DNA of 64,000 nucleotides, taken from assembly GCF_026967475.1 (NCBI RefSeq), contig NZ_CP114058.1, positions 806,001-870,000 of the forward strand. The letters are read 5' to 3'. A program made the position numbers and the translations under genes. The notes under the pieces are model-generated. The model saw only the letters and a list, made by a program, of their open reading frames with translations, was not told the DNA's origin and did no database searches. This DNA comes from Rouxiella chamberiensis (GTDB lineage Bacteria > Pseudomonadota > Gammaproteobacteria > Enterobacterales > Enterobacteriaceae). Shown here piece by piece: positions 5,086 to 55,560 of the stretch (position 1 is its first letter; every line of letters starts with the position of its first letter).

Positions 5086-5968
5086 TTAGGTCCGCGTTGA
5101 CCACCAGCACAGTAGCGAACCGGCGCTGACCATGGCGGCCCCTTGCCAGAAAAACAGCGTTAGAGACGAATCAAGAATGAAGGCGGCAAGCATGGCCGAG
5201 ATGACCGGAATAAAATAGGACGCCGTGGCAAGCAAGGTCACATTGCCGTGCAGAATGCCGACGTTCCAGGCGGCATAGCCAAAGCCCATCGCGGCGGCGG
5301 CCAGCGCAAGGTAGAGAATAACGTGCAGGTCAACATGAAAGGCAGGCTGTGGACCGGCAAGATATTTAATCCAGAGCGTTAGGGCCGTCAGCATAAAGAA
5401 CCAGCGTAATGCCGTTGCTGCCCCGCGCCATTTTTTTAGTGATGACACAGTAAACCGACCAGATGATCGCCCCGCCGAAAGCAAGCCCGTAACTGAGCGG
5501 GTTGGAGAGCAGATTGTTGCCTATCTGCGTCAATGAAAAGCCCTGACTGCCGCCCAGCACCCGGCTGATTCCGGCGAGGGCAAGAATGATGCCCGGCACA
5601 ATCAGCCAGCGGGCTTTCTGCCGATAAACCAGCACGGTAAGGACAATGGTCATGCTCGGCCAGAGATAATTGACCATGCCCACCTCTATGGCCTGCGAAC
5701 GGGTCGTGGCAAATCCGAGCGAAAGAGACAGGCAGAGTTCGTAGCAGACAAACAGCAGGCTTGCGCACAGCAGATAGGCTTTTGGGAAGGTTTTTATCTT
5801 TGGAAAACCGACGGTGAACAACAACAGCAGTGAACTTAGGGAGTAGATTGCCGCCGCGCCGCCAACCGGCCCCAATCCTTCGCTCACGACTCTTATCAGG
5901 CCGACAATGGCGCTCCACAAAACAATCGCCACAAGACCAATCAGTGTGGCTTTCCTAGACGTCATCAT
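5086..5968 (-). CDS. yddG: YddG-type aromatic amino acid exporter (EamA/DMT), frameshifted
   Basis: The N-terminal part (start 5968, MMTSRKATLIGLVAIVLWS) and the C-terminal part (ending 5086) together form a ten-helix EamA transporter like E. coli YddG, which exports Phe, Tyr and Trp from the cytoplasm. The frame breaks at the two C residues at 5401-5402 (plus strand). Removing one base restores GITLFFMLTALTLWIKY and gives 882 nt, or 293 residues, exactly the E. coli length. Conserved blocks are VGLIRVVSEGLGPVGGAAAIYS near residue 18 and MVNYLWP in mid-protein. As written, the first frame terminates at 5366. Probably a sequencing error, though a real pseudogene is possible. Confidence 0.82.
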
Positions 5969-6144: not shown

Positions 6145-6621
6145 CTACTTTCGTGCGGTGCCTGACTGGGCTTTTATTGCCTCGGCCAGTTCCGCGATAT
6201 AGCGGTCGGCGAGCAGTTCAACGGCGTCGCTGCGTGTGGTATTGGCAAGCTGGGCGAGTTGATCGATTTTTCTCAAAACAGAGGTTCTAAGGGAAAGGGA
6301 AACGGCTTTCTTTCTGACTTTGCTCAGGGAAACGCCTTTCTCGGCGGGCGAGATGGGCGAGACGCTGGCGTTGAGCGCTTCGGTCATCCAGCGCAGCGCC
6401 TTTTTATCCAGTTGACCATTCTCCACCAGTTGATAGGTATGCGCCGCCTTGCTGTATTTTATTTCGGCGCTATAACTGTCTCGAAGTTCTTTCAAGGCGC
6501 GCGTCAACGTCGGCTCGGAGCAGGCAAGCTGCGAGATGATCTTTTCCGAAGAAACCGGCTGTCCGGAAGACAGCAAAAGCGCCAGGCGAAATATTCGGGC
6601 TTGTCTTGTACTGATTTGCAT
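6145..6621 (-). CDS. terW: TerW, DNA-binding regulator of the ter genes
   Basis: A 158-residue protein closely like plasmid and O157 TerW. Residues 1-75 form a winged-helix type module (STRQARIFRLALLLSSGQPV...CSEPTLTRALKELRDSY). Residues about 105-150 (KAVSLSLRTSVLRKIDQLA...RSDAVELLADRY) look like a ribbon-helix-helix DNA-binding or dimerisation module, so the protein appears to join two DNA-binding folds. TerW is reported to bind upstream of terZABCDE. Here it is the last gene of the minus-strand arm, 160 bp after the CitE-like gene, so it may have its own promoter. Confidence 0.88.
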   Translation of the reverse strand: MQISTRQARIFRLALLLSSGQPVSSEKIISQLACSEPTLTRALKELRDSYSAEIKYSKAAHTYQLVENGQLDKKALRWMTEALNASVSPISPAEKGVSLSKVRKKAVSLSLRTSVLRKIDQLAQLANTTRSDAVELLADRYIAELAEAIKAQSGTARK

Positions 6622-6781
6622 AGTTAATCATGGCCCGAAAAAAGGTGAATGGCGCTTTTGCACGGAAACAGAGGTTGGAAAAGATAAAGCTCACCGCTTT
6701 CATGATGATTTCTGCATTTGAGACTTAACTTTTCCAATAACGCGCAAAATTCTAACAAAGTTAACTTCAACCTTATCTAAA

Positions 6782-7741
6782 TCAACTTTGACCTGTCAGC
6801 GTGACAAGCCGGACGCCATCTTGCCCACCGTCAGGCGAAATTCCGTAAATCTGTGCCTGTTCAAGAATTCTCAATGCCCAGCGACGATGGGTCGCGGGTT
6901 CGCACATCGCGCCCTGCGATTTAAACACCGCCTGACGTGAATTGAGAATGCGCAGGGCATCTTCATGGTCTGCCGACGAGACGCGGAGTGCCTGCTCGAT
7001 TTTGGCTATCTGACTGGGGTGGATGGCCGTTTTGCCGACCAGCCCATGCGCCATGTCCAGCGCCAGTTCCTTCTCCAGCACACCCTGCTCGTCGATGTGT
7101 TCACACACGGGGGATGTCAGCGCAAAATCACGGGATCCAAATACCGCCACCAGCATCTTGATAACGTAACCCATGGGGCTGTCATACAGCGTCAGATTAC
7201 GCGGGCGTCTTAGCGAAATAACGTTCATCAGGTCATTGCCGCCGATGCGCAGCGCCACGACGCGCTCATGGCAGGGATGCTCCGCCAGTGCCACGGCCAG
7301 CTCGCGCATTTTCGCGACGTCGAACACCTCTTCGGTTTCGAGCGTCGGCATGATGCCAAGATGGGTATTTTCGAGGATAGCCCACCATTCCGGCAGCGAG
7401 GCGAGCGTAAACTTGGGCAGTACGAGGCCGTCAATCGACGCCAGATCTTCGCGCTCGACCAGTTTTTTGCACATCGCCAGATGACGGGGGCGGATAAAAA
7501 CCAGCGGTCGTTCGTTGCCGGTTTCCAGCAGTCTCGCGGCAGAAAGATTTTGCAGCACTCTTCGCAGATGGGTCAGGGCGATGGGTACCTCGGCATCGGC
7601 AATGGCGTCTTCGAGATCGATAACGATAGAGCGCAGGCCTTCGATGCGGTTTTTCAGCACGATGTCGGCGATGTCATGACGCGTGGCCGGCATATAGAGG
7701 GTAGCGCCCAGCCGGTATGGCGAAAGTCTCTTTGTCATCAA
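6782..7741 (-). CDS. HpcH/HpaI aldolase / CitE-like lyase of the ter cluster
   Basis: A 319-residue TIM-barrel protein of the citrate-lyase-beta/HpcH family. The acidic metal-binding signature IVIDLEDA lies near residue 40, a FIRPRH substrate-binding segment near residue 83 and a GKTAIHPSQI segment near residue 238. Family members cleave or form C-C bonds of CoA thioesters or keto acids; the substrate of the ter-linked version is not known. It overlaps the preceding StiP gene by four bases (ATGA), which implies translational coupling. CitE-like genes are a standard member of ter-associated biosynthetic cassettes. Confidence 0.88.
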   Translation of the reverse strand: MMTKRLSPYRLGATLYMPATRHDIADIVLKNRIEGLRSIVIDLEDAIADAEVPIALTHLRRVLQNLSAARLLETGNERPLVFIRPRHLAMCKKLVEREDLASIDGLVLPKFTLASLPEWWAILENTHLGIMPTLETEEVFDVAKMRELAVALAEHPCHERVVALRIGGNDLMNVISLRRPRNLTLYDSPMGYVIKMLVAVFGSRDFALTSPVCEHIDEQGVLEKELALDMAHGLVGKTAIHPSQIAKIEQALRVSSADHEDALRILNSRQAVFKSQGAMCEPATHRRWALRILEQAQIYGISPDGGQDGVRLVTLTGQS

Positions 7742-8817
7742 TGCACCTTTTTAATAATGGTGACGGCGCGATATTGCCCCAGCCTATCGCCGACTTCGGC
7801 AATGGCGATGCCCTTTTCCTGCGCCAGATAAACCAGCAGCGCCACATCGGGGTCCTGTCTTGATCGCACCAGAATATGTTCCGGCACACGGCGCAAAACG
7901 GCGCGGGTCGCTTCGGCAATGCCCGGTTTGATTCGATTAATGCTGGAAACGTCGTAATGTTCGGCCAGAGACGTGATGACCTTTTCGCTCAGCGCCTTGA
8001 GAGAGGCGTGCTGCGCAGGCTGCCATGCACTGGCTTCGATGGCGTCGAGGTCAAGTTGTTGACGGCATTCTCCGACCGTATCGACCAGCAGGCGGCTGCA
8101 TTCGAATTCACGCAGATGATCGCACTGCACACAGCCGTGCAAGCCGTCGGCGGACCAGATCGAGCGCGAAATCAGCCCGGATACCGGTGCGCCCATGATG
8201 CCGAAGGGGATAAGCCAGTCGTCGTCACTGGCGGCAAGCCAGGAACATCCGCAGGGGTCGGCAAGCACTACCAGCCGTGGCTGGGCGGGATAACCCGCAC
8301 GTCCGGCGAGCGAGCGCTGCAGCTGGCCGGTGATGGCGCCTTTTCCGGTCCAGCCATCGACAAACACGATGCCCGCCGTGCCGTGGCGCGCTTCAATCCA
8401 TGCCAGTGCCGTTTCGTCGATGCCGCGATCGCGAATAATACTGATGCCGTAATGTGAAGAGGCCACGCCCATTTCGCGCAGCGTTTGCTGGAGCATGACC
8501 CCGAGCGGCACGCCAGCGCGCACCAGACTCACCAGCACGATAGGCGTGTCGCCAAACCGCGCCGCCAGCGCTTTCGCGAGCATGACGCCTTCTCGTGCCA
8601 GACGGGTTGCGCCACTTTCGAGCGCGCGGGCAAAAAGATCAAGATGCCACGCCGTCGGTTCCGGCTCCTGACTCAGCATCTCGGAATAATGTCGCGCGCC
8701 GGATTGAATCAACTGCTCTTTCACCGCCACGGGCGTCATCTCGAGTTCGACGGGTTGCAGCAGGAAATGCACGTCATCTGGCAGATAGGAACCGGAAAAA
8801 GGCACAAACGCGGTCAT
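7738..8817 (-). CDS. StiP-family protein (PRTase-like with C-terminal PELOTA domain)
   Basis: I place the start at the ATG at 8817 (MTAFVPFSGSYLPDDVHFLL), giving 359 residues; an upstream in-frame start would overlap the HAD gene by about 65 bp and add non-conserved sequence. The N-terminal two-thirds is the StiP domain, annotated in databases as a cysteine protease or PRTase-like domain (LVRAGVPLGV, FVDGWTGKGAIT). Residues about 300-359 (PEHILVRSRQDPDVALLVYLAQ...) fit a PELOTA-type RNA-binding fold. Comparative-genomic work groups StiP with ATP-grasp, PRTase and HAD proteins in ter loci and predicts synthesis of a nucleoside-like metabolite. The catalytic activity is unproven. Confidence 0.85.
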   Translation of the reverse strand: MTAFVPFSGSYLPDDVHFLLQPVELEMTPVAVKEQLIQSGARHYSEMLSQEPEPTAWHLDLFARALESGATRLAREGVMLAKALAARFGDTPIVLVSLVRAGVPLGVMLQQTLREMGVASSHYGISIIRDRGIDETALAWIEARHGTAGIVFVDGWTGKGAITGQLQRSLAGRAGYPAQPRLVVLADPCGCSWLAASDDDWLIPFGIMGAPVSGLISRSIWSADGLHGCVQCDHLREFECSRLLVDTVGECRQQLDLDAIEASAWQPAQHASLKALSEKVITSLAEHYDVSSINRIKPGIAEATRAVLRRVPEHILVRSRQDPDVALLVYLAQEKGIAIAEVGDRLGQYRAVTIIKKVH

Positions 8818-8818
8818 A

Positions 8819-9591
8819 TTATTTTTCTCCGAACAGGCGTGCGCCGATGTGCTGCGCAAACTGGCTTTGCTGCGGGATGCCATACCAGGTGCATAACTTC
8901 ATGAACCGGTAATCGCTCAGGCTGTCGCCGAGGCCGATGACCGGAAAGACGCCGCGTTCGGCCCGCAGTTTATCCAGCAGATAGCGCGTAGCGAGGCCTT
9001 TTTCCACGGGGTCGGGCAACCAGGCAATATTGTTGCTGTTACGGTGGATATAGAATCCGTCCGTTGAAAACCGGGCTTCGATTTCGTCGCCAATGGCGTT
9101 GAGTTCGTCGAGCCGCGTGCTGTCGGTGTGCTTCATCACCAGATAAATCGGCGTATCGCCGTATTCATAATTGATGCGCGCCCAGGCGTTGATGTCGCGT
9201 TCGCGCATTAATTCAGTGATGTCTTGCTGCAACTGAAGCAAACGTTCGCGATAAGGCGCGAGCCGGTCGAGCATCTGCGCCTGCCACACGGCATCGGGCT
9301 GCCCCTGCGGCGTAAGGATGACCGCGCCGTGCGTCGTCACCGCCCAGGAAGTGAAAGGAATGACCACGCGCGATATCTCTTCCGTACCGCGCGCCGTGAC
9401 CGGAATTAAATCAGCGTGTTGCAGCAGCCAGTCGACCAGCATTGACTGTTCTTCCGTCATGAAACTGCGCGGCGACAGCGAGCGGTCAAACGCGCCGGTG
9501 CGAAAAGGCTCAAGCGCCAGTTCGTCGACCATTTTGCGACGGGTCTGAAATAGCGTGTCGTCGAGATCGGAAAAACCACGGGATTATTCAT
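8819..9591 (-). CDS. HAD-superfamily hydrolase of the ter cluster, frameshifted near the N terminus
   Basis: The body (MVDELALEPFRTG... to stop 8819) is a Cof/SPP-like HAD hydrolase, with a GLGDSLSDYRFMKLC motif IV near the C terminus. As written it lacks the nucleophile loop. The ATG at 9591 starts MNNPVVF in another frame; adding one base to the A run at 9571-9575 (T run on the coding strand) restores FSDLDDTLFQTRRKMVDEL, including the DxD catalytic motif. The corrected gene is 774 nt, 257 residues, and overlaps the PRTase gene by 8 bp. Predicted role: a phosphatase step in the ter-linked metabolite pathway. Confidence 0.82.
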
Positions 9592-10723
9592 AGCAAATGA
9601 CCTCGACAACCGGCGCCACGCACTCAAGCGCCTCGATGAATAAAGGATCGACGCTGCTGGCTTCCGTTTCGATGCAAAGAAGAATGCGGTCGAACTTCTG
9701 ATGCGCGACGTTATAGACGAAATTCGGAATGCCCAGCCCGTAGTTGTCCTTGAAGGCCAGCGCCGATTCGATGGCAAAGCCGGTGGCGATAGGAGAGCGG
9801 GTGGTGCAGCTGAATTTGACCTCGGCCCCCAGCAATTCGAGCCGTTCGGCGAGCAGCAGGGGTTCCCAGACAAACTCGCCGGAACCCAGCACCAGAATCT
9901 TTTCGTCGGGTGAGGCGGTGACCAGTTTGCCCAAATCGGCGGCCGAATTTGCCATGCCGAGGCGGCCCCAGCTCTGTTTGCCGATGATTTTCACATTGCC
10001 GCTGCCGGTGACATTGACATGGGGCATCACGGGCACGGGGGCGCGCGGGTTTTTCTCCCAGTGCCAATTGCCCTGAATCAGTGAAACGGCGGTAACGGGA
10101 AGCGGGCAGTGAGTTGCAATTGCCTTGCCGCTCCAGTCGGTCAGCGTCACGGCCACCACGCGCTCGAGATGCCCGAGATTGCCCTCGACCCGCAGCGCCT
10201 CCAGCAGATTGACAAAGGTATTGCCGGTGGTGGCTTCATCATCGACCATCACGATGCTTCGCGCATTGAGCACCCGCGCCCGTAACGTGGCGTCGTTTGG
10301 CAGATACAGCAGGTGATCGGTGGCGTGGCTGTGGTTTTCCTTGAACTCGCACAGCAACTGCCCTTCAACCGGATGGCGGGTCGAGGTCAGATAAACGGCG
10401 TCCTGAAAAAGTGACTTTGCCTCGTCATACACGCCCGCTCCCAGCCCGACGGCAGTTTCGGCCATGCCGACAAACACCACCGGTTGCGGTAAATCGGCGG
10501 GGATTTGTTGAGCCAGCTGTCGATAGGCGGCGCGCATAATCGCGGGTGACACGGGAATATGGCGGCCCAGCACTTTGCTGACAAACAGGAAGGCGCGCTT
10601 GGGGTTTTGCCGCTCGGCGATATCAAACAGCGCATCGAGCGCCAGCGTGCCGCCGGTGGGCGTGACCGTCAGGGTGCCGCCCGCGAGTTCGCGACGATAA
10701 ATGGCGGCAGTGGGCGTAATCAT
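9584..10723 (-). CDS. Phosphoribosyltransferase with TRSP domain (ter cluster)
   Basis: A 379-residue protein. A type I PRTase domain covers about residues 15-230, with a PRPP-binding loop MVDDEATTGNT at residues 159-169. The C-terminal part (residues about 240-379, with LVLGSGEFVWEPLLLAERLE and a DPLFIEALE tail) corresponds to the TRSP domain found C-terminal to such PRTases. Predicted chemistry is transfer or removal of phosphoribosyl on an unknown base. It overlaps the ATP-grasp gene by four bases (ATGA) and the HAD gene by eight, so the genes form one tightly coupled operon. Confidence 0.87.
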   Translation of the reverse strand: MITPTAAIYRRELAGGTLTVTPTGGTLALDALFDIAERQNPKRAFLFVSKVLGRHIPVSPAIMRAAYRQLAQQIPADLPQPVVFVGMAETAVGLGAGVYDEAKSLFQDAVYLTSTRHPVEGQLLCEFKENHSHATDHLLYLPNDATLRARVLNARSIVMVDDEATTGNTFVNLLEALRVEGNLGHLERVVAVTLTDWSGKAIATHCPLPVTAVSLIQGNWHWEKNPRAPVPVMPHVNVTGSGNVKIIGKQSWGRLGMANSAADLGKLVTASPDEKILVLGSGEFVWEPLLLAERLELLGAEVKFSCTTRSPIATGFAIESALAFKDNYGLGIPNFVYNVAHQKFDRILLCIETEASSVDPLFIEALECVAPVVEVICYE

Positions 10724-11799
10724 GCTTTCACCTCGGCGGAAGGCATAGTTTGCAGCGTCAGGTCATAGAGCACGGCTTCGGTAAGCGGGCGCACGATGGC
10801 AGGCGTAAAGGCACTGCGCGCCAACGTTGTGACCTCGGATGCAGTCATGACGCCCAGCGCAAACATCGCAAACAGCCCGGGCAGATTGACGCCGCTGTGA
10901 CGGGTATACCCTATGCCGCCGGAAGGACGCATATTGATCTCGAGCAGCACGGGCCGACCTTCGTCGTTATGGCGAGTCTGGACGTTGACCAGACCATCGG
11001 CCTGCATCAGTTCGGCGCAGCGCAGGGCAAGCTCGTAGGCTTCGCCGGACTGCTCCAGATACTGCAATGACCCCTCCTTGCGACGCGCCACGGCAGCCAG
11101 CACCTTGCCTTGACTGACCAGCATGTCCACGGAGTATTCCGGCCCCGGCAAATAGGGCATCAAGACCAGCGGCTCGAACTCCGCCTGCTGCGCAAGCGCG
11201 TGCAGGTAAAGTTCGGGGTGAACCTTGCGATTGTCAGGATGAGTAAAAGCCGCCATCGGCGGTGCGTTGTCATCAAAACGCCAAAAACCCATGCCATAAA
11301 TACCGACAACCGGTTTGACGCACAGCGTCTTCGGATGTGCGGAAAGGCGATTTTGCGCCACAAGTTCCCGCAGGGCCTCGGCGTTATTCACCCGGACAGA
11401 AGGCACCACCGGCAAACCCAGCTGCTGCATGGCGGTTGCGAATGCGACCTTGTCGTCGGCCAGAGAGAAAGGGTTCGCGGACAGTGCGCCCGTCACCAGT
11501 TTCACCCCCAGCGCCTCTATTTCTGTGCGGTGGGCTTCATACCACAACGGGTGACGTCCGGCGTGAATCACCTTGACGGCATATTCTTCAATTGTCTCGG
11601 CAATAAATTGAAAACGCTGTTCATTTTCTTTTGGTTCGATCAGGGAAATATCGGCCAGAGAAAGAATTTCATTTCTTTTATTACGGTGAGAGGCAATTAA
11701 AGTTAAAGGTTTGTTTATTTTTTCAGAAAAAGTTTTAATGCTCAAAATAATGTCACGTTGCGATGACAAACCTTCCATTAGCCAAATGGTTAGACTCAT
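10720..11799 (-). CDS. ATP-grasp ligase (ter cluster, first gene of the minus arm)
   Basis: A 359-residue protein of the carbamoyl-phosphate-synthase-like ATP-grasp family. The central region (SLADDKVAFATAMQQLGLPVVP, residues about 110-135) starts the ATP-grasp fold; CVKPVVGIYGMGF is the nucleotide-binding loop, and LVNVQTRHN...PVLLEINMRPSGG (residues about 285-310) carries the Mg-binding Glu/Asn pair. Such enzymes ligate a carboxylate to an amine or thiol with ATP; the substrate is unknown. It is the promoter-proximal gene of a five-gene overlapping operon, 45 bp downstream of a good sigma70-type promoter. Confidence 0.87.
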   Translation of the reverse strand: MSLTIWLMEGLSSQRDIILSIKTFSEKINKPLTLIASHRNKRNEILSLADISLIEPKENEQRFQFIAETIEEYAVKVIHAGRHPLWYEAHRTEIEALGVKLVTGALSANPFSLADDKVAFATAMQQLGLPVVPSVRVNNAEALRELVAQNRLSAHPKTLCVKPVVGIYGMGFWRFDDNAPPMAAFTHPDNRKVHPELYLHALAQQAEFEPLVLMPYLPGPEYSVDMLVSQGKVLAAVARRKEGSLQYLEQSGEAYELALRCAELMQADGLVNVQTRHNDEGRPVLLEINMRPSGGIGYTRHSGVNLPGLFAMFALGVMTASEVTTLARSAFTPAIVRPLTEAVLYDLTLQTMPSAEVKA

Positions 11800-11844
11800 T
11801 GTTTTAATTTTCCAATAATGACAAGCGAAGGAGGGATTAAATCG

Positions 11845-11873
11845 AGTCTAGGTGGGCGCTTTGTGCATGTCAA
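11845..11873 (-). promoter_or_regulatory. Predicted sigma70 promoter for the ter minus-strand arm
   Basis: On the minus strand there is a perfect -35 TTGACA (11868-11873), a 17-bp spacer and a -10 TAGACT (11845-11850, 4 of 6 consensus). This puts transcription start near 11838, about 40 bp upstream of the ATP-grasp start codon. The -35 overlaps the edge of the 15-bp palindrome at 11872-11886. Confidence 0.6.
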
Positions 11874-11886
11874 TCATATTATGATT
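11872..11886. promoter_or_regulatory. Perfect 15-bp palindrome in the ter control region (putative operator)
   Basis: AATCATA-T-TATGATT is a perfect 7+1+7 inverted repeat directly upstream of, and touching, the -35 of the minus-arm promoter. The TATGATT half-site recurs at 12049-12055 over the -10 of the terZ promoter, there with a partly matching left arm. A site present at both divergent promoters is what a shared regulator such as TerW would need. Binding is inferred only. Confidence 0.45.
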
Positions 11887-12026
11887 TAAAAAAATGCAAG
11901 TTTCGAGGAAAGGTAAAGCTGGCTTTTTAAATGTATAGTATTGTCAGCTGATGTAAAGTATTTGCATAACAGTTCTTTTAAAACAGCAAGTTAAGTATAT
12001 TTCCGACTATTACGAAAAAATTCAGG

Positions 12027-12054
12027 TTGTGAGAATACTACCTCATGATATGAT
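12027..12054 (+). promoter_or_regulatory. Predicted promoter of the terZABCDE operon
   Basis: -35-like TTGTGA (12027-12032), a 16-bp spacer and -10 TATGAT (12049-12054, 5 of 6 consensus). Start of transcription would be near 12061, giving a leader of about 56 nt with a GAGGGA ribosome site before terZ. The -10 coincides with the TATGATT half-site shared with the palindrome at 11872. Confidence 0.42.
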
Positions 12055-12116
12055 TTTTTAAACATGGATTATATTTCATAAAAATAACCCGACATCATCT
12101 CTGAGGGAATTTAAAA

Positions 12117-12704
12117 ATGGTTTCTTTAACCAAAAACCAAACCGTTTCACTTAGCAAGCAAACTTCTTCTTTAAACCATCTTCAATTTGGATTGGGATGG
12201 GACCCGTTAAAAAAGAAAGGATTATTTGGTGGCCTGTTCGGCGGCGGTAAAGATTCCATTGATCTGGATGCGGGTTGTGTTTTGCTGGATAAAAACGGTA
12301 AAACAATCGACACCATCTGGTTTCGCAAATTAAAGTCAAATTGCGGCTCCGTTGTGCATCTGGGTGATAATTTAACCGGTGAAGGCGAGGGCGATGACGA
12401 GGTCATTACCGTCGATCTGGCGCGTCTGCCTACGCAGGTCGAATACCTGGCTTTCACGGTAAACAGCTTCCGTGGCCAGACGTTTAACGAAGTCGACAAC
12501 GCCTTTTGCCGCGTGGTCGATCAAGCTAGTCATTCCGAGCTTGCCCGCTACAAGCTGACCGAGCAGGGTTCGCATACCGGCATCATCATCGCCTCTCTGG
12601 CCCGCAACGGCGGCAGCTGGGATTTCACGGCGCACGGCAAGGCTTCAAGCGGCCGAACCATTGATGACATGAATAGCGACATTGTCGCTACGGTGGTGCG
12701 CTAA
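12117..12704 (+). CDS. terZ: TerZ, TerD-family tellurite resistance protein
   Basis: A 195-residue TerD-family (calcium-binding beta-sandwich) protein. It opens with VSLTKNQTVSLSKQT, then LQFGLGWDP, and has the family Ca-binding patterns SIDLDAGCVL and GEGEGDDEVI. The LTEQGSHTGI segment near the C terminus and the 12-residue GLFGGLFGGG-type insert near residue 38 are typical of TerZ rather than TerD or TerE. It acts in the cytoplasm and at the membrane with the other Ter proteins in resistance to tellurite, phage and colicins. First gene of the plus arm; its TAA overlaps the terA ATG by one base. Confidence 0.92.
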   Translation: MVSLTKNQTVSLSKQTSSLNHLQFGLGWDPLKKKGLFGGLFGGGKDSIDLDAGCVLLDKNGKTIDTIWFRKLKSNCGSVVHLGDNLTGEGEGDDEVITVDLARLPTQVEYLAFTVNSFRGQTFNEVDNAFCRVVDQASHSELARYKLTEQGSHTGIIIASLARNGGSWDFTAHGKASSGRTIDDMNSDIVATVVR

Positions 12705-13879
12705 TGACCATGACGCCGGGCAGCAATGCTGCCATTCCTGCTCAGACCCTGACGGTGCGCGTGCTGTCGGGCGTTCCGGTCGATGCTTCCGCCTTTCGTC
12801 TTTATGCCTCCGGCAAAGTGCAGGGCGATGCCGATATGGTGTTTTACGGCCAGCCGGTTAACGACGATGCATCCATCAAGCTGGTTGGTGCGGGCACCGA
12901 TACGGCGTTTACGGTCGACGTCGCTCGCCTGGGTGCCGACGTGCAAAAGCTGGCATTTACCGCAACCTGCGACGGCAGCGGAACCCTTGCCGGGTTGCAG
13001 CGGCTGGCGATTCAGGTGGAGCAAAACGGCAGCGTGCTGCTGACCGGCAACGTGGACATCACGGGCCGTCAGGAAGCCGCGCTTATCCTCGGAGAAATCT
13101 ATCGCCGCAACGCCGAGTGGAAATTCCGCTTTATTGCGCAGGGTTTCAACGGCGGACTTAAACCGCTGGCGGAACATTTCGGGGTGGATATTTCCGACTC
13201 TCCAGCGCCGACGCCGACGACTTCTCCAGCGCCGCCACCCGCCGCGCCGCCGACACCGCCGCCTGCCAAAATCAATCTGAGCAAAGTGACGCTGACCAAG
13301 GATAAACCGGCCATCAGCCTGACCAAGCGAGACAACTTCGGCGAAATCCGCATCAATCTCAACTGGAATCAGAACAGCAGCGGGTCGACGGGCATGCTCG
13401 GTATGTTCGGAAAATCCAGGGGCATCGACCTCGATTTAGGCGCGTTTGTCGAGCAGCAGGACGGCGTCAAGGACGTAATTCAGGCGCTGGGCAATCGCTT
13501 TGGCAACTATAACCGTGAACCCTTCGTCGAACTGAAAGGCGATGACCGCACGGGGCAGGTCAGCGGCGGCGAATGGATGCACATCAACGGTCGCGAATGG
13601 AAAAACCTTCGTCAGGTACTGATCTTCGCCTTTATTTATGAAGGGGCTGCAAGCTGGGATAAAACCGACGGCGTCGTCACGCTGCACGTGCCCGACCAGC
13701 CGCCAATTGAAACGCGTTTAACGGAAGGCTCCAACCGCCACAACATGTGCGCCATTGCCCGTCTGGTCAATGAAAACGGTGCCATCAAGGTTGAGCGCAT
13801 CAACCAGTTCTTCACCGGCCATAAGGAGATGGACAACGCGCTGGGATGGGGCTTTCGATGGACAGCTGGATCTAAATAA
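12704..13879 (+). CDS. terA: TerA, two-domain tellurite resistance protein
   Basis: A 391-residue protein with three parts: an N-terminal TerD-like domain (residues about 12-165, with GEIYRRNAEWKFRFIAQGFNGG, the usual TerD-family end motif), a hinge of about 25 residues made almost only of Pro, Ala, Thr and Ser (about 166-190), and a C-terminal TerA domain (INLSKVTLTKDKPAISLTK, then GIDLDLGAFVEQQDG). It starts one base inside the terZ stop codon. Predicted cytosolic partner of TerZ, TerD and TerE. Confidence 0.92.
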   Translation: MTMTPGSNAAIPAQTLTVRVLSGVPVDASAFRLYASGKVQGDADMVFYGQPVNDDASIKLVGAGTDTAFTVDVARLGADVQKLAFTATCDGSGTLAGLQRLAIQVEQNGSVLLTGNVDITGRQEAALILGEIYRRNAEWKFRFIAQGFNGGLKPLAEHFGVDISDSPAPTPTTSPAPPPAAPPTPPPAKINLSKVTLTKDKPAISLTKRDNFGEIRINLNWNQNSSGSTGMLGMFGKSRGIDLDLGAFVEQQDGVKDVIQALGNRFGNYNREPFVELKGDDRTGQVSGGEWMHINGREWKNLRQVLIFAFIYEGAASWDKTDGVVTLHVPDQPPIETRLTEGSNRHNMCAIARLVNENGAIKVERINQFFTGHKEMDNALGWGFRWTAGSK

Positions 13880-13901
13880 TACTAAAAATCAGGGGCATAA
13901 C

Positions 13902-14357
13902 ATGAGTATTTTCGACAGAGTCAAAGACGCCATTACCTCGGGCCGAAGCGAACTGACTAAACAGGTCGGGCGCTTCAAGAACAAGAAGTTCATGCACGGC
14001 ACCGTCGCGGTCTGCGCGCGGATTGCGGTTTCCAGCAACGGCGTGAGCAGCGAAGAAAAGCAGAAGATGATTGGTTTTCTTCAGTCTTCGCCCGAGCTGA
14101 AAGTATTCGATACACAAGAAGTTATCGATTTCTTCAATCAGCTGGTGGGCAATTTCGCTTTCGATTACGAAATCGGTAAAGGCGAAACCATGAAATACAT
14201 TCTGGCACTGAAAGACCAGCCAGAGGCGGCGCAGCTTGCTGTACGCGTCGGGATTGCCGTGGCGAAAAGCGACGGAGATTTCGATCAGGACGAGCAAAAC
14301 GCCGTGCGTGAAATCGCGCTAGCGCTGGGCTTCACGCCTGCCGAATTTGGTCTTTAG
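13902..14357 (+). CDS. terB: TerB tellurite resistance protein
   Basis: A 151-residue all-helical TerB protein. I use the ATG at 13902 (MSIFDRVKDAITSGR), which has an AGGGGC ribosome site; upstream in-frame sequence overlaps the terA end and is not conserved. Acidic metal-binding motifs are present, such as VAVCARIAVSSNGVSSEEKQ near residue 33 and AVAKSDGDFDQDEQNAV near residue 118. TerB is a metal-binding peripheral protein reported to contact the inner membrane and TerC. Confidence 0.92.
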   Translation: MSIFDRVKDAITSGRSELTKQVGRFKNKKFMHGTVAVCARIAVSSNGVSSEEKQKMIGFLQSSPELKVFDTQEVIDFFNQLVGNFAFDYEIGKGETMKYILALKDQPEAAQLAVRVGIAVAKSDGDFDQDEQNAVREIALALGFTPAEFGL

Positions 14358-14400
14358 GATTCGTCACATTAACAGCATCACTCTGGCTTAAGGGTCAACT

Positions 14401-15444
14401 ATGGAATCTACTCATATCGGCTTTCCTATCGAAACCGTTATCGTGTTTGTGGTACTGGCCGTCGGGGCCATTCTGATTGACCTGTTCATGCACCGTCACG
14501 ACGAAGCTATCTCGCTGAAAAGTGCCTCGCTCTGGACCGTGTTCTGGATAGTCGTCGCGATGGCCTTTGCGGGCTTCCTTTATATTCATCACGGTGCCGA
14601 AGTGGCCAGCCTGTTTATTACCGGTTATGCGCTTGAGAAGGTGCTGTCGGTCGATAACCTGTTTGTCATGATGGCCATTTTCTCGTGGTTCGCCGTGCCC
14701 GACAACTATCGCCACCGCGTGCTGTATTGGGGCGTTATCGGCGCCATCGTGTTCCGCGGCATCTTCGTGGCTATCGGTGCCAGCCTGCTGATGCTCGGGC
14801 CGTGGGTGGAGATTGTCTTTGCGCTGATTGTCGGCTGGACCGCCGTGATGATGCTCAAAAGCGGCGATGACGACGATGAAATCGAAGACTATTCGCAACA
14901 TATCGCCTATCGCATGGTGAAACGTTTCTTCCCTATCTGGCCGAAACTGCGCGGACATTCGTTCCTGCTGAGCCAGAAAGAGGTCGACGTGGAACTGGCC
15001 AAGCCCGAAAACAAAGATGTCACTATCGGCCGTGTCGGCAAGGCAGCACGCTACGCCACGCCGCTGATGCTGTGCCTGGCGGTGGTCGAACTGTCTGACG
15101 TCATGTTCGCATTTGACTCCGTACCGGCGGTCATCGCGGTTAGCCGTGAACCGCTTATCGTCTACAGCGCCATGATGTTTGCGATTCTTGGCCTGCGTAC
15201 CATGTATTTTGTGCTCGAAGCCTTGAAGCAATATCTGGTTCATCTCGAGAAAGCGGTCATCGTGCTGCTGTTCTTCATCGCGGTAAAACTGGGTCTGAAC
15301 GCGACCGATCACCTGTGGCACCACGGATACAATATTTCGGCCAACGCCAGCCTGCTGGTCGTACTGGGTGTGCTGGCTGTGGGAACCATCATCAGCGTGA
15401 TGTTCCCGGGTAAAGGCGATGCCGAACAAGGTAAACAGGGCTAA
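14401..15444 (+). CDS. terC: TerC integral membrane protein
   Basis: A 347-residue polytopic inner-membrane protein with about nine hydrophobic segments. TerC-family signatures are the LEKVLSVDNLFVMMAIF segment near residue 80 and VELSDVMFAFDSVPAV near residue 230, which carry conserved Asp/Asn residues inside the membrane. A charged cytosolic loop (DDDDEIEDY, then HIAYRMVKRFFP) lies between. It is the membrane anchor of the Ter complex. It starts 43 bp after terB with a TAAGGGTC ribosome site. Confidence 0.94.
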   Translation: MESTHIGFPIETVIVFVVLAVGAILIDLFMHRHDEAISLKSASLWTVFWIVVAMAFAGFLYIHHGAEVASLFITGYALEKVLSVDNLFVMMAIFSWFAVPDNYRHRVLYWGVIGAIVFRGIFVAIGASLLMLGPWVEIVFALIVGWTAVMMLKSGDDDDEIEDYSQHIAYRMVKRFFPIWPKLRGHSFLLSQKEVDVELAKPENKDVTIGRVGKAARYATPLMLCLAVVELSDVMFAFDSVPAVIAVSREPLIVYSAMMFAILGLRTMYFVLEALKQYLVHLEKAVIVLLFFIAVKLGLNATDHLWHHGYNISANASLLVVLGVLAVGTIISVMFPGKGDAEQGKQG

Positions 15445-15493
15445 GGCCCTTGCCTGAGATTTTCAATTCAACGACACAATTAAGGATATCACT

Positions 15494-16072
15494 ATGGGCG
15501 TTTCTCTTTCTAAAGGCGGCAATGTTTCTTTAAGCAAAGAAGCACCGACCATGAAAAATGTGCTGGTTGGTCTGGGGTGGGATGCCCGCTCTACCGATGG
15601 GCAGGACTTTGACCTTGATGCCTCCGCATTCCTGCTGGCCAGCAATGGCAAGGTGCGCAGCGATGCCGACTTCATTTTCTACAACAACCTGAAATCGGCG
15701 GAAGGCTCCGTACAACATACCGGCGACAACCGCACCGGCGCGGGCGATGGCGATGACGAAGCATTGAAAATCAAGCTCGACGCCATTCCTGCCGACGTCG
15801 ATAAAATCGTTTTTGTGGTCACTATCCACGATGGCGCAACCCGTCGTCAGAGTTTTGGGCAGGTTTCCGGCGCGTTTATCCGTCTGGTCAATGATGAGAA
15901 CCAGCAGGAAGTGGCGCGTTACGACCTAACTGAAGATGCCTCGACGGAAACGGCGATGCTGTTCGGCGAGCTTTACCGCCACAATGCGGAATGGAAATTC
16001 CGTGCGGTAGGTCAGGGTTATGCAGGCGGTCTGAATTCGGTATGCGCGCAGTACGGCATCAACGCGTCTTGA
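15494..16072 (+). CDS. terD: TerD tellurite resistance protein
   Basis: A 192-residue TerD. It begins [19 protein letters not shown], continues with LVGLGWDAR and the Ca-site motifs [11 protein letters not shown] and [10 protein letters not shown], and ends with [22 protein letters not shown]. It is very similar to the adjacent terE product, as expected for a tandem duplication within the family. It follows terC by 49 bp with an AAGGATATC ribosome site. Confidence 0.93.
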
Positions 16073-16144
16073 GTCCTACCTTGGCTAATCGGCAGGCGGG
16101 TTGTCCGTCTGCCCCATAAATTGCGAATACGACAGGAGTAATAA

Positions 16145-16720
16145 ATGGCAGTTTCTCTGACTAAAGGCGGCAACGTCTCGTTAACGAAAGAAGCACCTAC
16201 GATGAATATCGCGATGGTCGGTCTGGGCTGGGATTCGCGCGTCACCGACGGCGCAGAGTTCGACCTCGATGCTTCCGTCTTCATGGTAGGCGAAAACGGC
16301 AAAGTGCTTTCCGATGCCGGTTTTATTTTCTTTAACAACAAAACCAGCGCCTGCGGTTCGGTGAATCACATGGGTGACAACCGCACCGGCGAAGGCGACG
16401 GCGATGATGAGCAGGTCAAGATTGATCTGGCAAAAGTCCCTGCCGACGTCAAAAAACTGGTGTTTGCCGTTACCATCTATGATGCCGAAACGCGCAAGCA
16501 GAACTTCGGTATGGTGAGCAACAGCTTCATGCGCGTGTTCAACAATGACAACGGCACTGAAATCGCCCGTTTTGATCTGTCCGAAGATGCCTCTACCGAA
16601 ACGGCGATGGTATTCGGCGAGCTGTATCGTCACATCACCGAATGGAAATTCAAGGCCGTAGGTCAGGGCTTTGCAGGCGGCCTGTCTGCGCTGGCTTCCC
16701 AGCACGGCGTTAATATCTAA
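16145..16720 (+). CDS. terE: TerE tellurite resistance protein
   Basis: A 191-residue TerD-family protein, colinear with TerD throughout ([69 protein letters not shown]). It is the last gene of the operon; a strong terminator follows 15 bp after the stop, so no terF is present here. An AGGAGTAATAA ribosome site precedes it. Confidence 0.93.
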
Positions 16721-16735
16721 TCCGACAAATGTCGC

Positions 16736-16768
16736 AAAGCCCCGAGTATAAATCTCGGGGCTTTTTTT
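16736..16768 (+). terminator. Rho-independent terminator ending the terZABCDE operon
   Basis: AAAGCCCCGAG (16736-16746) pairs with CTCGGGGCTTT (16754-16764) around a 7-nt loop, with a T run after it. It is located 15 bp after terE. Confidence 0.92.
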
Positions 16769-16875: not shown

Positions 16876-18003
16876 TTAGGCGGATTCGTAAGGAGGATAG
16901 TCAATATAACCCTCGGCAGAACCGCCGTAATAGGTATCGCGGTCGGGCTTGTTCAGCGGCAACGCATTCTCCAGCCGATAAACCAGGTCAGGATTGGCAA
17001 TAAACGGCTGACCAAAGGCGGCCAGGTCAATCAGACCGGAGTCGAGGTAATCCTGCGCCCGCTCGCGGGTCAAGTCGCCTGCCAGAATCAGCGCCGTCTC
17101 TTTCAGCCCGTCACGACAGATTTTCAACAGATTCTTGATGGCCTCGTCTTTTGATTGCGCATCATCTGCGCTAAAGAAGAAGTTGGTCTGGTCCATGACA
17201 TGCACATAGGCAATGCCGCGTTCACCCAAACCTTTGCATAGTGCGGAGTAGGTTTCGTCAATGTCGTCATAGAGCGGCATATCAAACAGTTGGCCGTAAG
17301 GCGAGATGCGGATGCCGACACGCCCCTTGCCGATTCGAGCACAGACGGCATCGACGACCTCAAACACAAAACGCAGACGATCTTCAATGTTTTGCGCGCC
17401 GTATTTGTCACTGCGATCGTTGACCTTCGGATTAATAAACTGCTCGAAGAGGTAGCCGTTGGCACCGTGGATTTCCACGCCGTCGAAGCCCGCAGTGATG
17501 GCGTTTTCCGCCGCCTGGGCAAAATCATTGACCACGCGTCCGACTTCTTCGGTAGAGAGCGGACGAGGTTTGGATGTTTCAACGAAGCCCGGTTCGCCAT
17601 CTTCTTTATAGGCAAATGCGGTGGCTTTGGCGGCCGGTTTATCGGAAGAACTCACAGGCGCCGCGCCGTCGATTTGCAGCGACGTATGAGAAACGCGGCC
17701 CACGTGCCACAGCTGGGCAAAAATCTTGCCGCCGACGCTGTGTACGGAATCGGTAGTGAGTTTCCAGCCAGCTATCTGCTTCTTGCCGAAAATACCTGGG
17801 TTGAATAAATAACCCTGACCTTCGCGGGACACCGGTGTACCTTCTGAAACAATAAGGCCTGCGGTGGCACGCTGCGTGTAATACAGCGCAATCTGTTCGT
17901 TGGCGATATCGTCCGGCGCGCGGGAGCGGGTCATCGGAGCCATCACAATACGGTTGGCCAGTTCAATGTCGCCCAGCGTAAATTTGCCAAATAAGTCAGT
18001 CAT
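16876..18003 (-). CDS. nemA: Old-yellow-enzyme family NAD(P)H:alkene reductase (NemA-like)
   Basis: A 375-residue FMN-binding TIM-barrel enzyme of the OYE family. MAPMTRSRAPDD near residue 21 and the HAENG-like HGANGYLFEQFINP block near residue 190 (Asn-194-type active site) are visible, with VNDFAQAAENAITAGFDGVEIHG just before it. NemA reduces N-ethylmaleimide, electrophilic alkenes and nitro compounds. It is divergent from a LysR regulator with 124 bp between the starts, the usual arrangement for LysR control of an adjacent gene. The end is at GYIDYPPYESA. Confidence 0.9.
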   Translation of the reverse strand: MTDLFGKFTLGDIELANRIVMAPMTRSRAPDDIANEQIALYYTQRATAGLIVSEGTPVSREGQGYLFNPGIFGKKQIAGWKLTTDSVHSVGGKIFAQLWHVGRVSHTSLQIDGAAPVSSSDKPAAKATAFAYKEDGEPGFVETSKPRPLSTEEVGRVVNDFAQAAENAITAGFDGVEIHGANGYLFEQFINPKVNDRSDKYGAQNIEDRLRFVFEVVDAVCARIGKGRVGIRISPYGQLFDMPLYDDIDETYSALCKGLGERGIAYVHVMDQTNFFFSADDAQSKDEAIKNLLKICRDGLKETALILAGDLTRERAQDYLDSGLIDLAAFGQPFIANPDLVYRLENALPLNKPDRDTYYGGSAEGYIDYPPYESA

Positions 18004-19136: not shown

Positions 19137-19703
19137 ATGCTGCTGTTAATCAATGCTTTTATTATCCTGTTGACGGTTATCGCGATGGAAGTGATCGCAG
19201 CGTTGGCGCACAAATATATTATGCACAGTTGGGGCTGGGGCTGGCACCACTCGCACCACGAACCGCACGAGGGCGGGCTGGAGTTGAATGATCTCTATGC
19301 CGTGGTGTTTGCCGGCTTGGCAATCTTGCTGATTTATCTTGGAAGCGTGGGTTACTGGCCCTTACAGTGGATAGGCGCGGGTATGACGACCTACGGCGCA
19401 CTGTATTTTATCGTTCACGATGGGCTGGTGCATCAGCGCTGGCCGTTTCGTTATATTCCGCGCAAAGGTTATCTAAAACGGCTGTATATGGCCCATAAGC
19501 TGCACCACGCGGTGCGGGGCAAGGAAGACTGCGTGTCCTTTGGTTTCCTGTATGCGCCACCGCTGTCGAAGCTGCAAAAGACGCTGCGTCAGCGGCATAA
19601 AAATCCTTTAACGAGGACGCTGCCACAGATCGGGCGGACGTGGCGTCGAACTCGCCATCCGAGAAGTAAGCGCCACGCCTGCACCTGCCGCCAGCAGGGC
19701 TAA
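19137..19703 (+). CDS. crtZ: Beta-carotene 3-hydroxylase
   Basis: A 188-residue membrane di-iron hydroxylase converting beta-carotene to zeaxanthin. All His clusters of the CrtZ family are present: HKYIMH (residues 26-31), HHSHH, HDGLVH and HKLHH. Several hydrophobic segments flank them. The last 30 residues are Arg-rich and unconserved, and their codons overlap the end of crtB on the opposite strand by 96 bp. The convergent crtB/crtZ arrangement is the same as in Pantoea crt clusters. It lacks the operon promoter of crtE and must be transcribed from its own promoter upstream of 19137. Confidence 0.93.
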   Translation: MLLLINAFIILLTVIAMEVIAALAHKYIMHSWGWGWHHSHHEPHEGGLELNDLYAVVFAGLAILLIYLGSVGYWPLQWIGAGMTTYGALYFIVHDGLVHQRWPFRYIPRKGYLKRLYMAHKLHHAVRGKEDCVSFGFLYAPPLSKLQKTLRQRHKNPLTRTLPQIGRTWRRTRHPRSKRHACTCRQQG

Positions 19704-20531
19704 TTTTTCAGCCTTGCTGGTGCCCTGACGATTATCCCACGCTGACATGCCGGCCTTTTGCACCTTCACGCCAATTTCCCGATAAACGCCGCGCGCGGTG
19801 GCAATCGCCCAGGCCGAGCGCAGCGGTAAATCCTGCAATCCCGCTCTGGCAGACTGATAATACGGCTCGGCTTCTTCTATCAGGCGACCGGCGATGCGCG
19901 CCAACTGCCGCCGATGGGAAGGCAGGGCATAATTGCTTCTGTCCAGCCCCTCGTCGGCCAGCCATTGCAGCGGCACGTAGCAGCGATGAACCTGCGCATC
20001 TTCGACGATATCGCGGGCAATATTGGTCAGCTGGAACGCCAGACCCAAATCGCAGGCGCGGTCCAGCACCGCCTCGTCGCGCACGCCCATGACCTGCGCC
20101 ATCATCAATCCCACAACCCCGGCCACGTGGTAACAGTAACGCAACGTGTCGTTGAGCGTCTGGTAAGTCTCTTCGCGCACGTCCATCGCGTAGCCTTCGA
20201 GATGATCAAACGCCAGCCGTTCGCTGATTCCCTGCGTCAGCGCGACCTCCTGAAAAGCGGCAAAGGCGGGATCTTCCATTTTCTCCCCGGCAAAGGCGCG
20301 GCGCGTCGATTCACGCAGTTGCGCCAGCCGTTGCTCGGGGGTGTCGACAGGCGCGGGCGCGCTAAAGCCGAGCGTTTGTCCGTCGATGACATCGTCACAA
20401 TGACGACACCAGGCATAAAGCATCAACGCGCTGCGTCGCGTGTGGGTATCAAACAATTTTGATGCGGTAGCAAAACTCTTCGAGCCGACCGCCATCGTTT
20501 CCGTGGCGTGATTCAACAAGGGTTGATTCAT
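19608..20531 (-). CDS. crtB: Phytoene synthase
   Basis: A 307-residue squalene/phytoene-synthase fold enzyme that condenses two GGPP to phytoene. The first Asp-rich motif, YAWCRHCDDVIDG, lies near residue 40, and the second Asp-rich helix, LTNIARDIVEDA, near residue 168. The length fits Pantoea CrtB (309). Its ATG overlaps the crtI stop (ATGA), so it is translationally coupled. Last gene of the minus-strand crt operon. Confidence 0.95.
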   Translation of the reverse strand: MNQPLLNHATETMAVGSKSFATASKLFDTHTRRSALMLYAWCRHCDDVIDGQTLGFSAPAPVDTPEQRLAQLRESTRRAFAGEKMEDPAFAAFQEVALTQGISERLAFDHLEGYAMDVREETYQTLNDTLRYCYHVAGVVGLMMAQVMGVRDEAVLDRACDLGLAFQLTNIARDIVEDAQVHRCYVPLQWLADEGLDRSNYALPSHRRQLARIAGRLIEEAEPYYQSARAGLQDLPLRSAWAIATARGVYREIGVKVQKAGMSAWDNRQGTSKAEKLALLAAGAGVALTSRMASSTPRPPDLWQRPR

Positions 20532-22009
20532 GGGGTCAAATCCTCAAGCATCAGGCCCGCTGTGGCTTTCGCCGAGCCTATCACGCCCGGCACGCCTGCT
20601 CCGGGATGGGTGCCAGCGCCGACCAGATAGAGATTGTCAATCTGGTCGTCGCGGTTGTGCGGCCTGAACCAGGCGCTTTGGGTCAAAATGGGTTCGACGG
20701 AAAACGCAGAGCCGAGATGCGCGTCCAGCTCGTCGCGAAAATCAAACGGCGTAAACATGCGGTGCGTCACGAGCTGCTCGCGAAGCCCCGGCATGTAGCG
20801 CTCTTCGAGATAGGCAAAAATGCGGTCGCGCAGTCGCGGTCCTTCGACGTTCCAGTCGATATCGGCCGTGCCGAGATGCGGGACGGGGGCCAGCACGTAA
20901 TAGCTGCCGCCGCCTTCCGGCGCGAGCGAAGGGTCGGTGACACAGGGCGCATGCAGATACAGGGAGAAGTCGTCGGCCAGTTTGTCGCTGTTGAAAATTT
21001 CATTGATCAGCGCCTGATAGCGTGGTCCGAAGCAGACGGTATGGTGCGCCAGCTGACTGTGATGATGGTTAAGCCCGAAATACAGCACAAACAGCGAGTT
21101 ACTCATCCGTTTACGTTTGAGCGAAGTCGAGCGCGCCTTGCCGACGGGGTGATCGGCCAGCAATTTTTGATAGGTATTGACCACGTCGCCATTGGACGCC
21201 ACGGCGGGCGTCGGCAACCGGCGTCCGTCTTCAAGCTGCACGGCGATGATTTTATCACCCGCCGTTTCGAGTTTGCCGACTTTGGCATTCAGCTCAATCT
21301 TGCCGCCCAGATCTTCAAACAGTTTTACCATGCCCTGCACCAGCGCACCGGTGCCGCCGCGTGGGAACCACACGCCCCATTCGCGCTCAAGGGCATGAAT
21401 CAACGTATAAATCGACGAGGTGGCAAACGGATTGCCGCCGACCAGCAGCGAGTGGAAGGAGAATGCCTGACGCAGATGATCTTCTTCTATAAAGGAAGCC
21501 ACCATGCTGTAAACGCTGCGCCAAGCCTGCAAACGGGCCAGTTGCGGACCGGCTTTGAGCATGTCGCGAAAGGAGAGAAACGGCACGGTGCCGAGTTTGA
21601 GATAACCCTCTTTGAACACCGCCTGCGAATAGCGCAGGAATTTGCGATACCCTTCGACGTCACGCGGATTAAAGCGGGTAATCTGCGCCTCGAGTCTGGC
21701 CTGATCGTTGTCGTAATCCAGCACTTTTCCGTCTTCCCAGCACAACCGATAAAACGGCGTGACGGGCATCAGCTCGACATAGTCCTCAAGGCGTTTACCA
21801 CTCAAGGCGAACAGCTCCTCGATAGCCGAAGGATCGGTGATAACCGTGGGACCCGCATCGAAAGTAAATCCTTGTTCCTGGTACACATAAGCGCGACCGC
21901 CGGGCTTGTCGCGGCCTTCGAGCAACAGCGTCGGGATCCCTGCCGACTGCAGGCGAATCGCCAACGCCAGACCGCCAAAACCGGCACCAATTACAATCGT
22001 TCTGTCCAT
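20528..22009 (-). CDS. crtI: Phytoene desaturase (lycopene-forming)
   Basis: A 493-residue FAD enzyme. The dinucleotide-binding motif VIGAGFGGLALAIRLQ is at residues 5-20, and the bacterial CrtI signature near the C terminus (LYLVGAGTHPGAGVPGVIGS) is at about residues 465-484. It carries out four desaturations from phytoene to lycopene at the membrane. The start ATG overlaps the restored crtY stop by one base (TAATG) and the stop overlaps crtB by four. Confidence 0.95.
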   Translation of the reverse strand: MDRTIVIGAGFGGLALAIRLQSAGIPTLLLEGRDKPGGRAYVYQEQGFTFDAGPTVITDPSAIEELFALSGKRLEDYVELMPVTPFYRLCWEDGKVLDYDNDQARLEAQITRFNPRDVEGYRKFLRYSQAVFKEGYLKLGTVPFLSFRDMLKAGPQLARLQAWRSVYSMVASFIEEDHLRQAFSFHSLLVGGNPFATSSIYTLIHALEREWGVWFPRGGTGALVQGMVKLFEDLGGKIELNAKVGKLETAGDKIIAVQLEDGRRLPTPAVASNGDVVNTYQKLLADHPVGKARSTSLKRKRMSNSLFVLYFGLNHHHSQLAHHTVCFGPRYQALINEIFNSDKLADDFSLYLHAPCVTDPSLAPEGGGSYYVLAPVPHLGTADIDWNVEGPRLRDRIFAYLEERYMPGLREQLVTHRMFTPFDFRDELDAHLGSAFSVEPILTQSAWFRPHNRDDQIDNLYLVGAGTHPGAGVPGVIGSAKATAGLMLEDLTP

Positions 22010-25485: not shown

Positions 25486-25525
25486 TGACTCTCCGTTGAA
25501 AAAATCCTGTCGGTTTAAGCAGCAG

Positions 25526-44699: not shown

Positions 44700-44727
44700 C
44701 GATAATCCACCAGTCAATAAGAGAAAG

Positions 44728-55504: not shown

Positions 55505-55560
55505 GTTATCGAGATCCCGCGCAGTTATTAAAATCCATAAAACGCTTAGCATCCGTAGAC

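Follow-up and report, generated by a model that had tools for sequence, protein, structure and literature searches.

Gene content of the locus

The ter locus described here occupies positions 6145 to 16720 of a 64,000-nucleotide stretch of the Rouxiella chamberiensis contig NZ_CP114058.1 (hereafter the window, i.e., the whole stretch analysed). It consists of two divergent gene sets that had been named in an initial annotation and that Pfam searches confirmed: a minus arm running from 11799 to 6145 and a plus arm from 12117 to 16720. In order of transcription, the minus (metabolic) arm encodes an ATP-grasp ligase, a phosphoribosyltransferase (PRTase) with a TRSP domain, a HAD phosphatase, StiP-PELOTA, a CitE-like lyase and TerW, and the plus arm is made up of terZABCDE. 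All of these genes are present, TerW and the HAD being recognised through their relatives:

6145..6621, minus strand: TerW, winged-helix-type regulator of 158 amino acids (aa), with weak helix-turn-helix and ScpB Pfam matches below the curated cut-offs
6782..7741, minus strand: CitE-like C-C bond lyase (C-C_Bond_Lyase, PF15617, E 4.9e-108)
7738..8817, minus strand: StiP, with a modelled PRTase fold and a C-terminal PELOTA/L7Ae-like domain (PF11202, PF15608; start set by homology, open reading frame (ORF) 7738-8883)
8819..9591, minus strand: HAD phosphatase gene (open frame 8819-9532), whose HAD-family profile matches 6D3V/6CJ0; frame disrupted near the start as read
9584..10723, minus strand: PRTase with C-terminal TRSP domain (PF15609 (PRTase_2), 1.9e-63; PF12500 (TRSP), 1.4e-22)
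10720..11799, minus strand: ATP-grasp ligase (ATPgrasp_Ter, PF15632, E 2.7e-41), first gene of the metabolic arm
12117..12704, plus strand: terZ, TerD family (PF02342)
12704..13879, plus strand: terA, TerD domain (PF02342)
13902..14357, plus strand: terB (PF05099; start set by homology, ORF 13755-14357)
14401..15444, plus strand: terC, membrane protein (PF03741, TIGR03718)
15494..16072, plus strand: terD (PF02342)
16145..16720, plus strand: terE (PF02342)

As regards the features that mark membership in this kind of locus, the terZABCDE operon is present, the five enzymes of the divergent metabolic arm (ATP-grasp, PRTase, HAD, StiP, and CitE) all stand in order, with the HAD frame broken as read, and terW is accompanied by a predicted palindromic operator between the arms. 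The minus arm had been called an overlapping operon, which holds for the ATP-grasp and PRTase genes (4 bp), for the PRTase gene and the HAD start, and for the StiP and CitE-like genes, and fails for terW, which lies 160 bp away from the CitE-like gene.

For comparison, we used the best 80 of 491 relatives, fetched with the PRTase; this sample leans to the kin of the window, which tells against reading its counts too generally. Nineteen of the 80 genome loci were shorter than 20.9 kb, leaving 61 long loci. The absence of terF, already remarked in the initial annotation, was upheld, as a Klebsiella-plasmid terF query found no match in the window (E 1e-4). At the same threshold, queries from the IncHI2 locus (L001) for DUF4236, two terY genes, terX, the TerY-C protein, PP2C and the InaA-like kinase, and for the vWA protein at the place of terF, found no window match either. 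The second HAD (hadIB), which accompanies 35 of the 61 long loci, was likewise not found in the window. With so many of these genes missing, the locus cannot be called complete. The extended set terX/terY/terF is not essential for membership in the Ter loci, since terX occurs in 13 and terF in 24 of the long loci, and the minimal gene content of the window recurs in six others (L017, L028, L048, L056, L059, and L060). The window thus carries a short form of the Ter locus, which occurs elsewhere too.

A predicted two-operator switch between the arms

The following features were placed in the control region, the palindromes by prediction and the promoters by a promoter scan together with conservation:

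11800..12116, no strand: divergent control region of 317 bp, conserved in 56 genome loci
11872..11886, no strand: palindrome 1, a perfect AATCATANTATGATT at the metabolic-arm promoter and likely an operator for TerW
11845..11873, minus strand: likely metabolic-arm promoter (TTGACA, 17 bases, TAGACT)
12041..12055, no strand: palindrome 2, with 3 mismatches, second likely TerW operator
12027..12054, plus strand: likely terZ promoter (TTGTGA, 16 bases, TATGAT)

The 158-aa protein shares 42-70% identity with proteins at the same place in relatives and is named TerW in the L001 record. A search for symmetric motifs, seeded with the control region of the window and run over 14 chosen regions, gave the motif AATCATAnTATGATT. 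The site at 11872-11886 is the only one with at most 2 mismatches in the 64 kb, and a perfect palindrome appeared in none of 2000 simulated 317-base sequences. Of the 51 divergent genome loci with TerW (a set that includes close relatives and is not one of independent cases), 39 had a best site free of mismatches, 11 had one with a single mismatch, and one had a site with 2; in the five divergent genome loci without TerW, the best site had 2, 2, 2, 4, and 4 mismatches. A genome search found TerW nowhere in the genomes of these five; when the search was repeated, TerW was missed again in L011, L038, and L046 and recovered in all four genomes that have it at the locus. The operator decays where TerW is lost, operator 1 being degraded or gone in three Enterobacterales genomes that lack the gene. 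One of these loci, L011 (Rahnella bruchi), lacks both TerW and a TerE match, its operator is degraded, and it looks like a decaying ter locus.

An exact TTGACA lies beside palindrome 1 in 48 of 54 TerW-positive regions (a set that takes in the window, L001, and L005), followed 17-18 bases further on by TAGACT, TAAACT or TACACT in 42 of those 48. TATGAT, the likely terZ -10 element, falls on the second, weaker site in 43 of the 53 regions having one, and the 169 bp between the palindromes of the window is the commonest spacing. Besides the seeding of the motif search and the kinship among the TerW-positive loci, several points count against this arrangement. The second operator carries three mismatches, the expectation for so weak a site being about 0.09 per 317-bp stretch; the -35 element of the ter promoter matches the consensus at 3 or fewer of 6 positions in 30 of the 53 regions; and the promoter scan gave five candidates vs. 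1.8 expected, so that the promoters rest on conservation. All in all, the control region appears to serve both arms, as had been suggested, with two TerW-type palindromes, one for each likely promoter.

Part of this picture has precedents. A 25-bp palindrome, matched to a TerW-protected region in Escherichia coli, was reported in Pectobacterium, together with two palindrome copies between the arms and control by PhoP (PMC7843439). Protection by terW against the lethality of terZA is mentioned, as a cited result, in PMC4633105. Beside PMC7843439, the palindromes at both promoters and their apparent loss together with TerW would be new, although no literature search was made for them.

The metabolic arm in relatives and known systems

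The characteristic ATP-grasp residues are conserved in 12 homologues, and E135 and D170 of the CitE-like lyase, which has solved citrate-lyase-like relatives, are invariant in 18 sequences. Among the 80 PRTase-fetched genome loci, the HAD was found in 79, StiP in 79, CitE in 78, and the ATP-grasp in 64, with the gaps for CitE or StiP in L063 and L064 possibly being contig ends; 56 of the 80 share the divergent arrangement. Among the 16 loci where no ATP-grasp gene was found are all ten Xenorhabdus loci. Between terZ and the PRTase gene, no ORF of 80 aa occurs in the 425-557 bp of L039 and L042 (Xenorhabdus) or of L054, L057, and L062. A family search in the 13 genomes whose locus lacks the gene reached at best 33.7 bits, as compared with 135.4 bits in the one gene-bearing genome that was searched. 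With 29-34 bits, eight of these 13 still pass the Pfam cut-off, and 12 of 14 control genomes pass it too, which speaks against a simple absence call; as weaker ATP-grasp proteins pass it, the absence rests on the distance from the 135.4 bits of the single gene-bearing genome. Given the ten Xenorhabdus loci, the usual core is PRTase-HAD-StiP-CitE, and the ATP-grasp step, being absent in some lineages, is dispensable or replaced there. The Lactococcus plasmid pFI430 retains CitE, PRTase, and StiP along with a HAD-like gene.

Earlier publications on Pectobacterium and Klebsiella already show the divergent layout, which is not special to the window. The two-operon layout and a predicted nucleoside-like product are described in PMC8115787, the Ter network in PMC7824862, and the divergent five-gene operon in PMC7843439, each citing Anantharaman 2012. 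Papers cited here still call the product of the Ter metabolic arms, predicted in 2012, unknown.

The closest likeness is the locus of Pectobacterium versatile, with terZABCDE, a divergent five-gene operon, terW beyond it and two palindromes in between; it comprises 18 genes including terY1 (PMC7843439), whereas the locus in the window ends after terW and has its HAD broken as read. The IncHI2 (L001) and Klebsiella plasmid loci have the window-like order terW, CitE, StiP, HAD, PRTase, ATP-grasp and divergent terZABCDE (PMC8115787), and their proteins are 57-89% identical to those of the window, but they additionally carry DUF4236, terX, terY genes, PP2C, a kinase, and terF. Pseudomonas-type loci (L002, L067, L088) share the enzymes and terZABCDE with the window (most proteins 44-72% identical), but are co-directional, have no TerW match, and usually include genes for a trypsin-like peptidase and a second HAD. 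The peptidase gene stands beside the PRTase gene in most Pseudomonas-type loci (L002, L067-L069, L071-L082, L085, L086, and L088) and was not seen in the divergent enterobacterial loci. The Acinetobacter phage vB_AbaM_ME3 (L003) has consecutive genes for PRTase, HAD, and StiP and, close by, one of TerD type (PMC7824862), but no ATP-grasp or CitE match, and its PRTase is ~30% identical to that of the window. A few kb from its Ter enzymes, this phage also encodes an NAD synthetase and a macro-domain (Appr-1-p) protein (L003, 2786-5117), which may hint at NAD or ADP-ribose chemistry.

The reading frame of the HAD gene

At E 0.001, no Pfam family matched the frame at 8819-9532, and its HAD-IIB match was weak. 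In relatives, the HAD gene starts just within the end of the PRTase gene and motif I (SDLDDTLFQ) follows within about 10 codons. In the window, motif I lies upstream of 9532 and is out of frame with the conserved start (~9591), and in the frame of motif I there is no ATG, GTG or TTG between the upstream stop and the motif. In 83 records that have a HAD match and a recognisable motif I, an in-frame start precedes the motif everywhere except in the window, an outcome shared by an earlier, looser count of 86 records; L005, which has many split genes and no motif I, was excluded. The copy in the window is therefore broken as read, which counts against a working arm, and the initial description of both arms as intact does not hold.

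The break could be real, in which case the metabolic arm would be decaying in this strain and no final product would be made. The misplaced start and the missing terX, terY, and terF would fit such a decay, but the remaining five minus-arm genes are open, and over 237 aa the 8819-9532 frame shows 100% identity with an intact Rouxiella chamberiensis protein of 257 aa. Other genes of the window are split as well. The yddG gene (5086-5968, minus strand) is divided into two overlapping frames that match positions 2-192 and 178-292 of the transporter profile. A BapA-type adhesin with bacterial Ig (Big) repeats (44776-55597, minus strand) falls into two slightly overlapping ORFs, which adjoin type I secretion genes (39846-44735) and are possibly one frame-broken gene. 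As these genes are also split, the evidence leans towards indel errors in the sequence rather than a real mutation, and we consider decay of the arm unlikely.

Two PRTase-fold proteins and the place of RNA

In PRTase-TRSP, the D161-D162-E163..T166-G167 loop for phosphoribosyl pyrophosphate (PRPP) is invariant in 15 sequences, and the structure model is like adenine phosphoribosyltransferase (APRT), of the type I fold; the sequence of the protein has one match at 99%, followed by Rahnella and other Yersiniaceae at 78%. The StiP ORF at 7738-8883 matched the StiP (8.7e-89) and PELOTA_1 (2.3e-27) families, and in fold searches its model matched type I PRTases similar to hypoxanthine phosphoribosyltransferase (HPRT) and PyrR. 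Since StiP models as a PRTase fold, the arm would hold two PRTase-fold proteins. Two points speak against this assignment, namely the modest Foldseek E-values of StiP and its invariant FVDGW.GKG.I motif, in which a single acidic residue precedes GK instead of the usual acidic pair.

The PyrR-like fold joined to a PELOTA domain could also mean that StiP serves chiefly as a regulator that binds RNA, or as an enzyme that modifies it, and that the arm targets RNA, not a free metabolite. HPRT-type enzymes match StiP equally well, no Rfam RNA element was found in the window at gathering cut-offs, and the remaining enzymes of the arm have a metabolic look, which makes this quite unlikely.

A solved phosphatase close to a ter-locus HAD

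A profile of 19 HAD sequences matched the structures 6D3V/6D3W and 6CJ0, entitled 'Trehalose phosphatase', at 2.6e-83, a score raised by a close Pseudomonas homologue within the profile. The ter-locus HAD of the P. aeruginosa plasmid pPUV-7 (L088) differs from 6D3V at 18 of 251 residues as counted by eye (~93% identity), and the 6D3V alignment places its cysteines at residues 85 and 231. These are the positions of the two cysteines named for the P. aeruginosa 'extrachromosomal TPP' (trehalose-6-phosphate phosphatase), which was inhibited with an apparent Ki of 2.1 uM (PMC6838324). By this identity and the matching cysteines, a ter-locus HAD appears to have been already purified and solved as a trehalose-6-phosphate phosphatase; that 6D3V is the 'extrachromosomal TPP' of PMC6838324 is suggested by the cysteine positions. 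In the papers searched, no link between the 6D3V-type phosphatase and the ter-locus HAD was found; the one paper naming trehalose-6-phosphate phosphatase together with a 'tellur' term is, by its title, on arabinose metabolism. The three structures thus belong to the HAD family of the metabolic arm and are near-identical to the pPUV-7 protein, but they were studied as trehalose-6-phosphate phosphatases and are distant from the intact Rouxiella homologue, which matches 6D3V over residues 2-249 at E 1.3e-43 (motif I being out of frame in the window). At this distance, a common substrate is not assured.

To our knowledge, the only activity of this HAD family acts on trehalose-6-phosphate and not on a nucleotide, which weighs against a nucleoside-type product. 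The arm might then work on sugar phosphates, with the HAD a true trehalose-6-phosphate phosphatase that tunes the pool of trehalose-like or other disaccharides under stress, as the 'Trehalose phosphatase' structures in the family, the ~93% identity of the 6D3V chain to a plasmid ter HAD and the fitting cysteines (PMC6838324) would allow. However, no trehalose-6-phosphate synthase is annotated in L001-L005 or L088 (the enzyme was not otherwise searched for), and two PRTase-fold proteins and the PELOTA domain would be left unexplained. HAD-IIB phosphatases are, moreover, often promiscuous, and we regard a sugar-phosphate role as very unlikely.

Proposed mechanism

The reading that we favour, with moderate confidence, is that of a short Ter stress-response locus with two divergent arms restrained by TerW, in which the metabolic arm makes a small ribosylated compound that acts through the Ter proteins. 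From the placement of the sites, TerW would sit on two operators, one at each divergent promoter, and restrain both arms until a stress signal arrives. PRTase-TRSP, with its APRT-like fold, and StiP, with its HPRT/PyrR-like fold and RNA-binding-type domain, would use PRPP; the HAD would strip phosphate from a sugar-phosphate intermediate; the CitE-like lyase would form or break a C-C bond; and the ATP-grasp would add a ligation, presumably optional, as whole lineages are without it. At the TerC membrane complex, the product or a metal may be bound by TerZ, A, B, D, and E, which would so alter the behaviour of the envelope or of transport. The gene content, fold classes, conserved motifs, operator placement, loss of sites together with TerW and absence of ATP-grasp in some lineages are what we observed; the substrates, the product, what might lift TerW and the route by which the product may reach the Ter proteins are inferred from them.

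Two further points weigh against this mechanism. We know of no enzyme of the arm with a known physiological substrate. Furthermore, terZ-F alone suffices for tellurite resistance (PMC8115787), and this phenotype therefore does not need the metabolic arm. A nucleoside-type arm nevertheless agrees with the family and fold evidence (two PRTase folds, a phosphatase, a lyase, and a ligase) and with the published prediction (PMC8115787, PMC7824862), so that this part of the initial annotation stands, but its portrayal of the locus as a clean, complete, and intact model has to be given up, with usual genes missing and the HAD frame broken as read.

Highly improbable, in our judgement, is a more specific version in which the arm builds a disaccharide-type nucleoside, perhaps on RNA, by PRPP-dependent O-ribosylation through StiP, whose PRTase fold joined to an L7Ae-like domain for RNA binding would put ribosyl phosphate on a sugar hydroxyl, and dephosphorylation by the HAD, a relative of which is known to act on the disaccharide phosphate trehalose-6-phosphate, with TerD-family proteins reading the modification or product as a stress signal. 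Eukaryotic Rit1 achieves an outcome comparable to the proposed O-ribosylation. Barely credible is the notion, carried by the current family name of StiP, that this protein is a cysteine protease: the Pfam and NCBI names and a Cys189 retained in 15 of 18 homologues speak for it, but no cysteine is invariant in the alignment of these 18, L052, L003, and L004 lack Cys189 and keep the other motifs, and the fold matches of StiP are PRTases.

Genes beside the locus

Downstream of terE lies a gene for a flavin mononucleotide (FMN) oxidoreductase (16876-18003, minus strand). Near the ter locus, the window also holds a likely carotenoid cluster (19137-26485) with hydroxylase-like, amine-oxidase/desaturase-like, lycopene cyclase, glycosyltransferase, type 2 isopentenyl diphosphate isomerase, and prenyl diphosphate synthase genes.

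Significance

Ter loci of this kind are widespread and poorly understood, and the window offers a compact copy with a clear predicted two-operator switch, although its usefulness as a model hinges on its HAD frame. Across relatives, the commonest core is PRTase-HAD-StiP, usually with CitE. The comparison ties the HAD and StiP to known folds, which should make the product of the arm easier to look for: crystal structures and a purified relative of the HAD seem to exist already under a different name, which would give a known enzyme to start from, and StiP may be better regarded as a candidate phosphoribosyltransferase and RNA binder before a protease.

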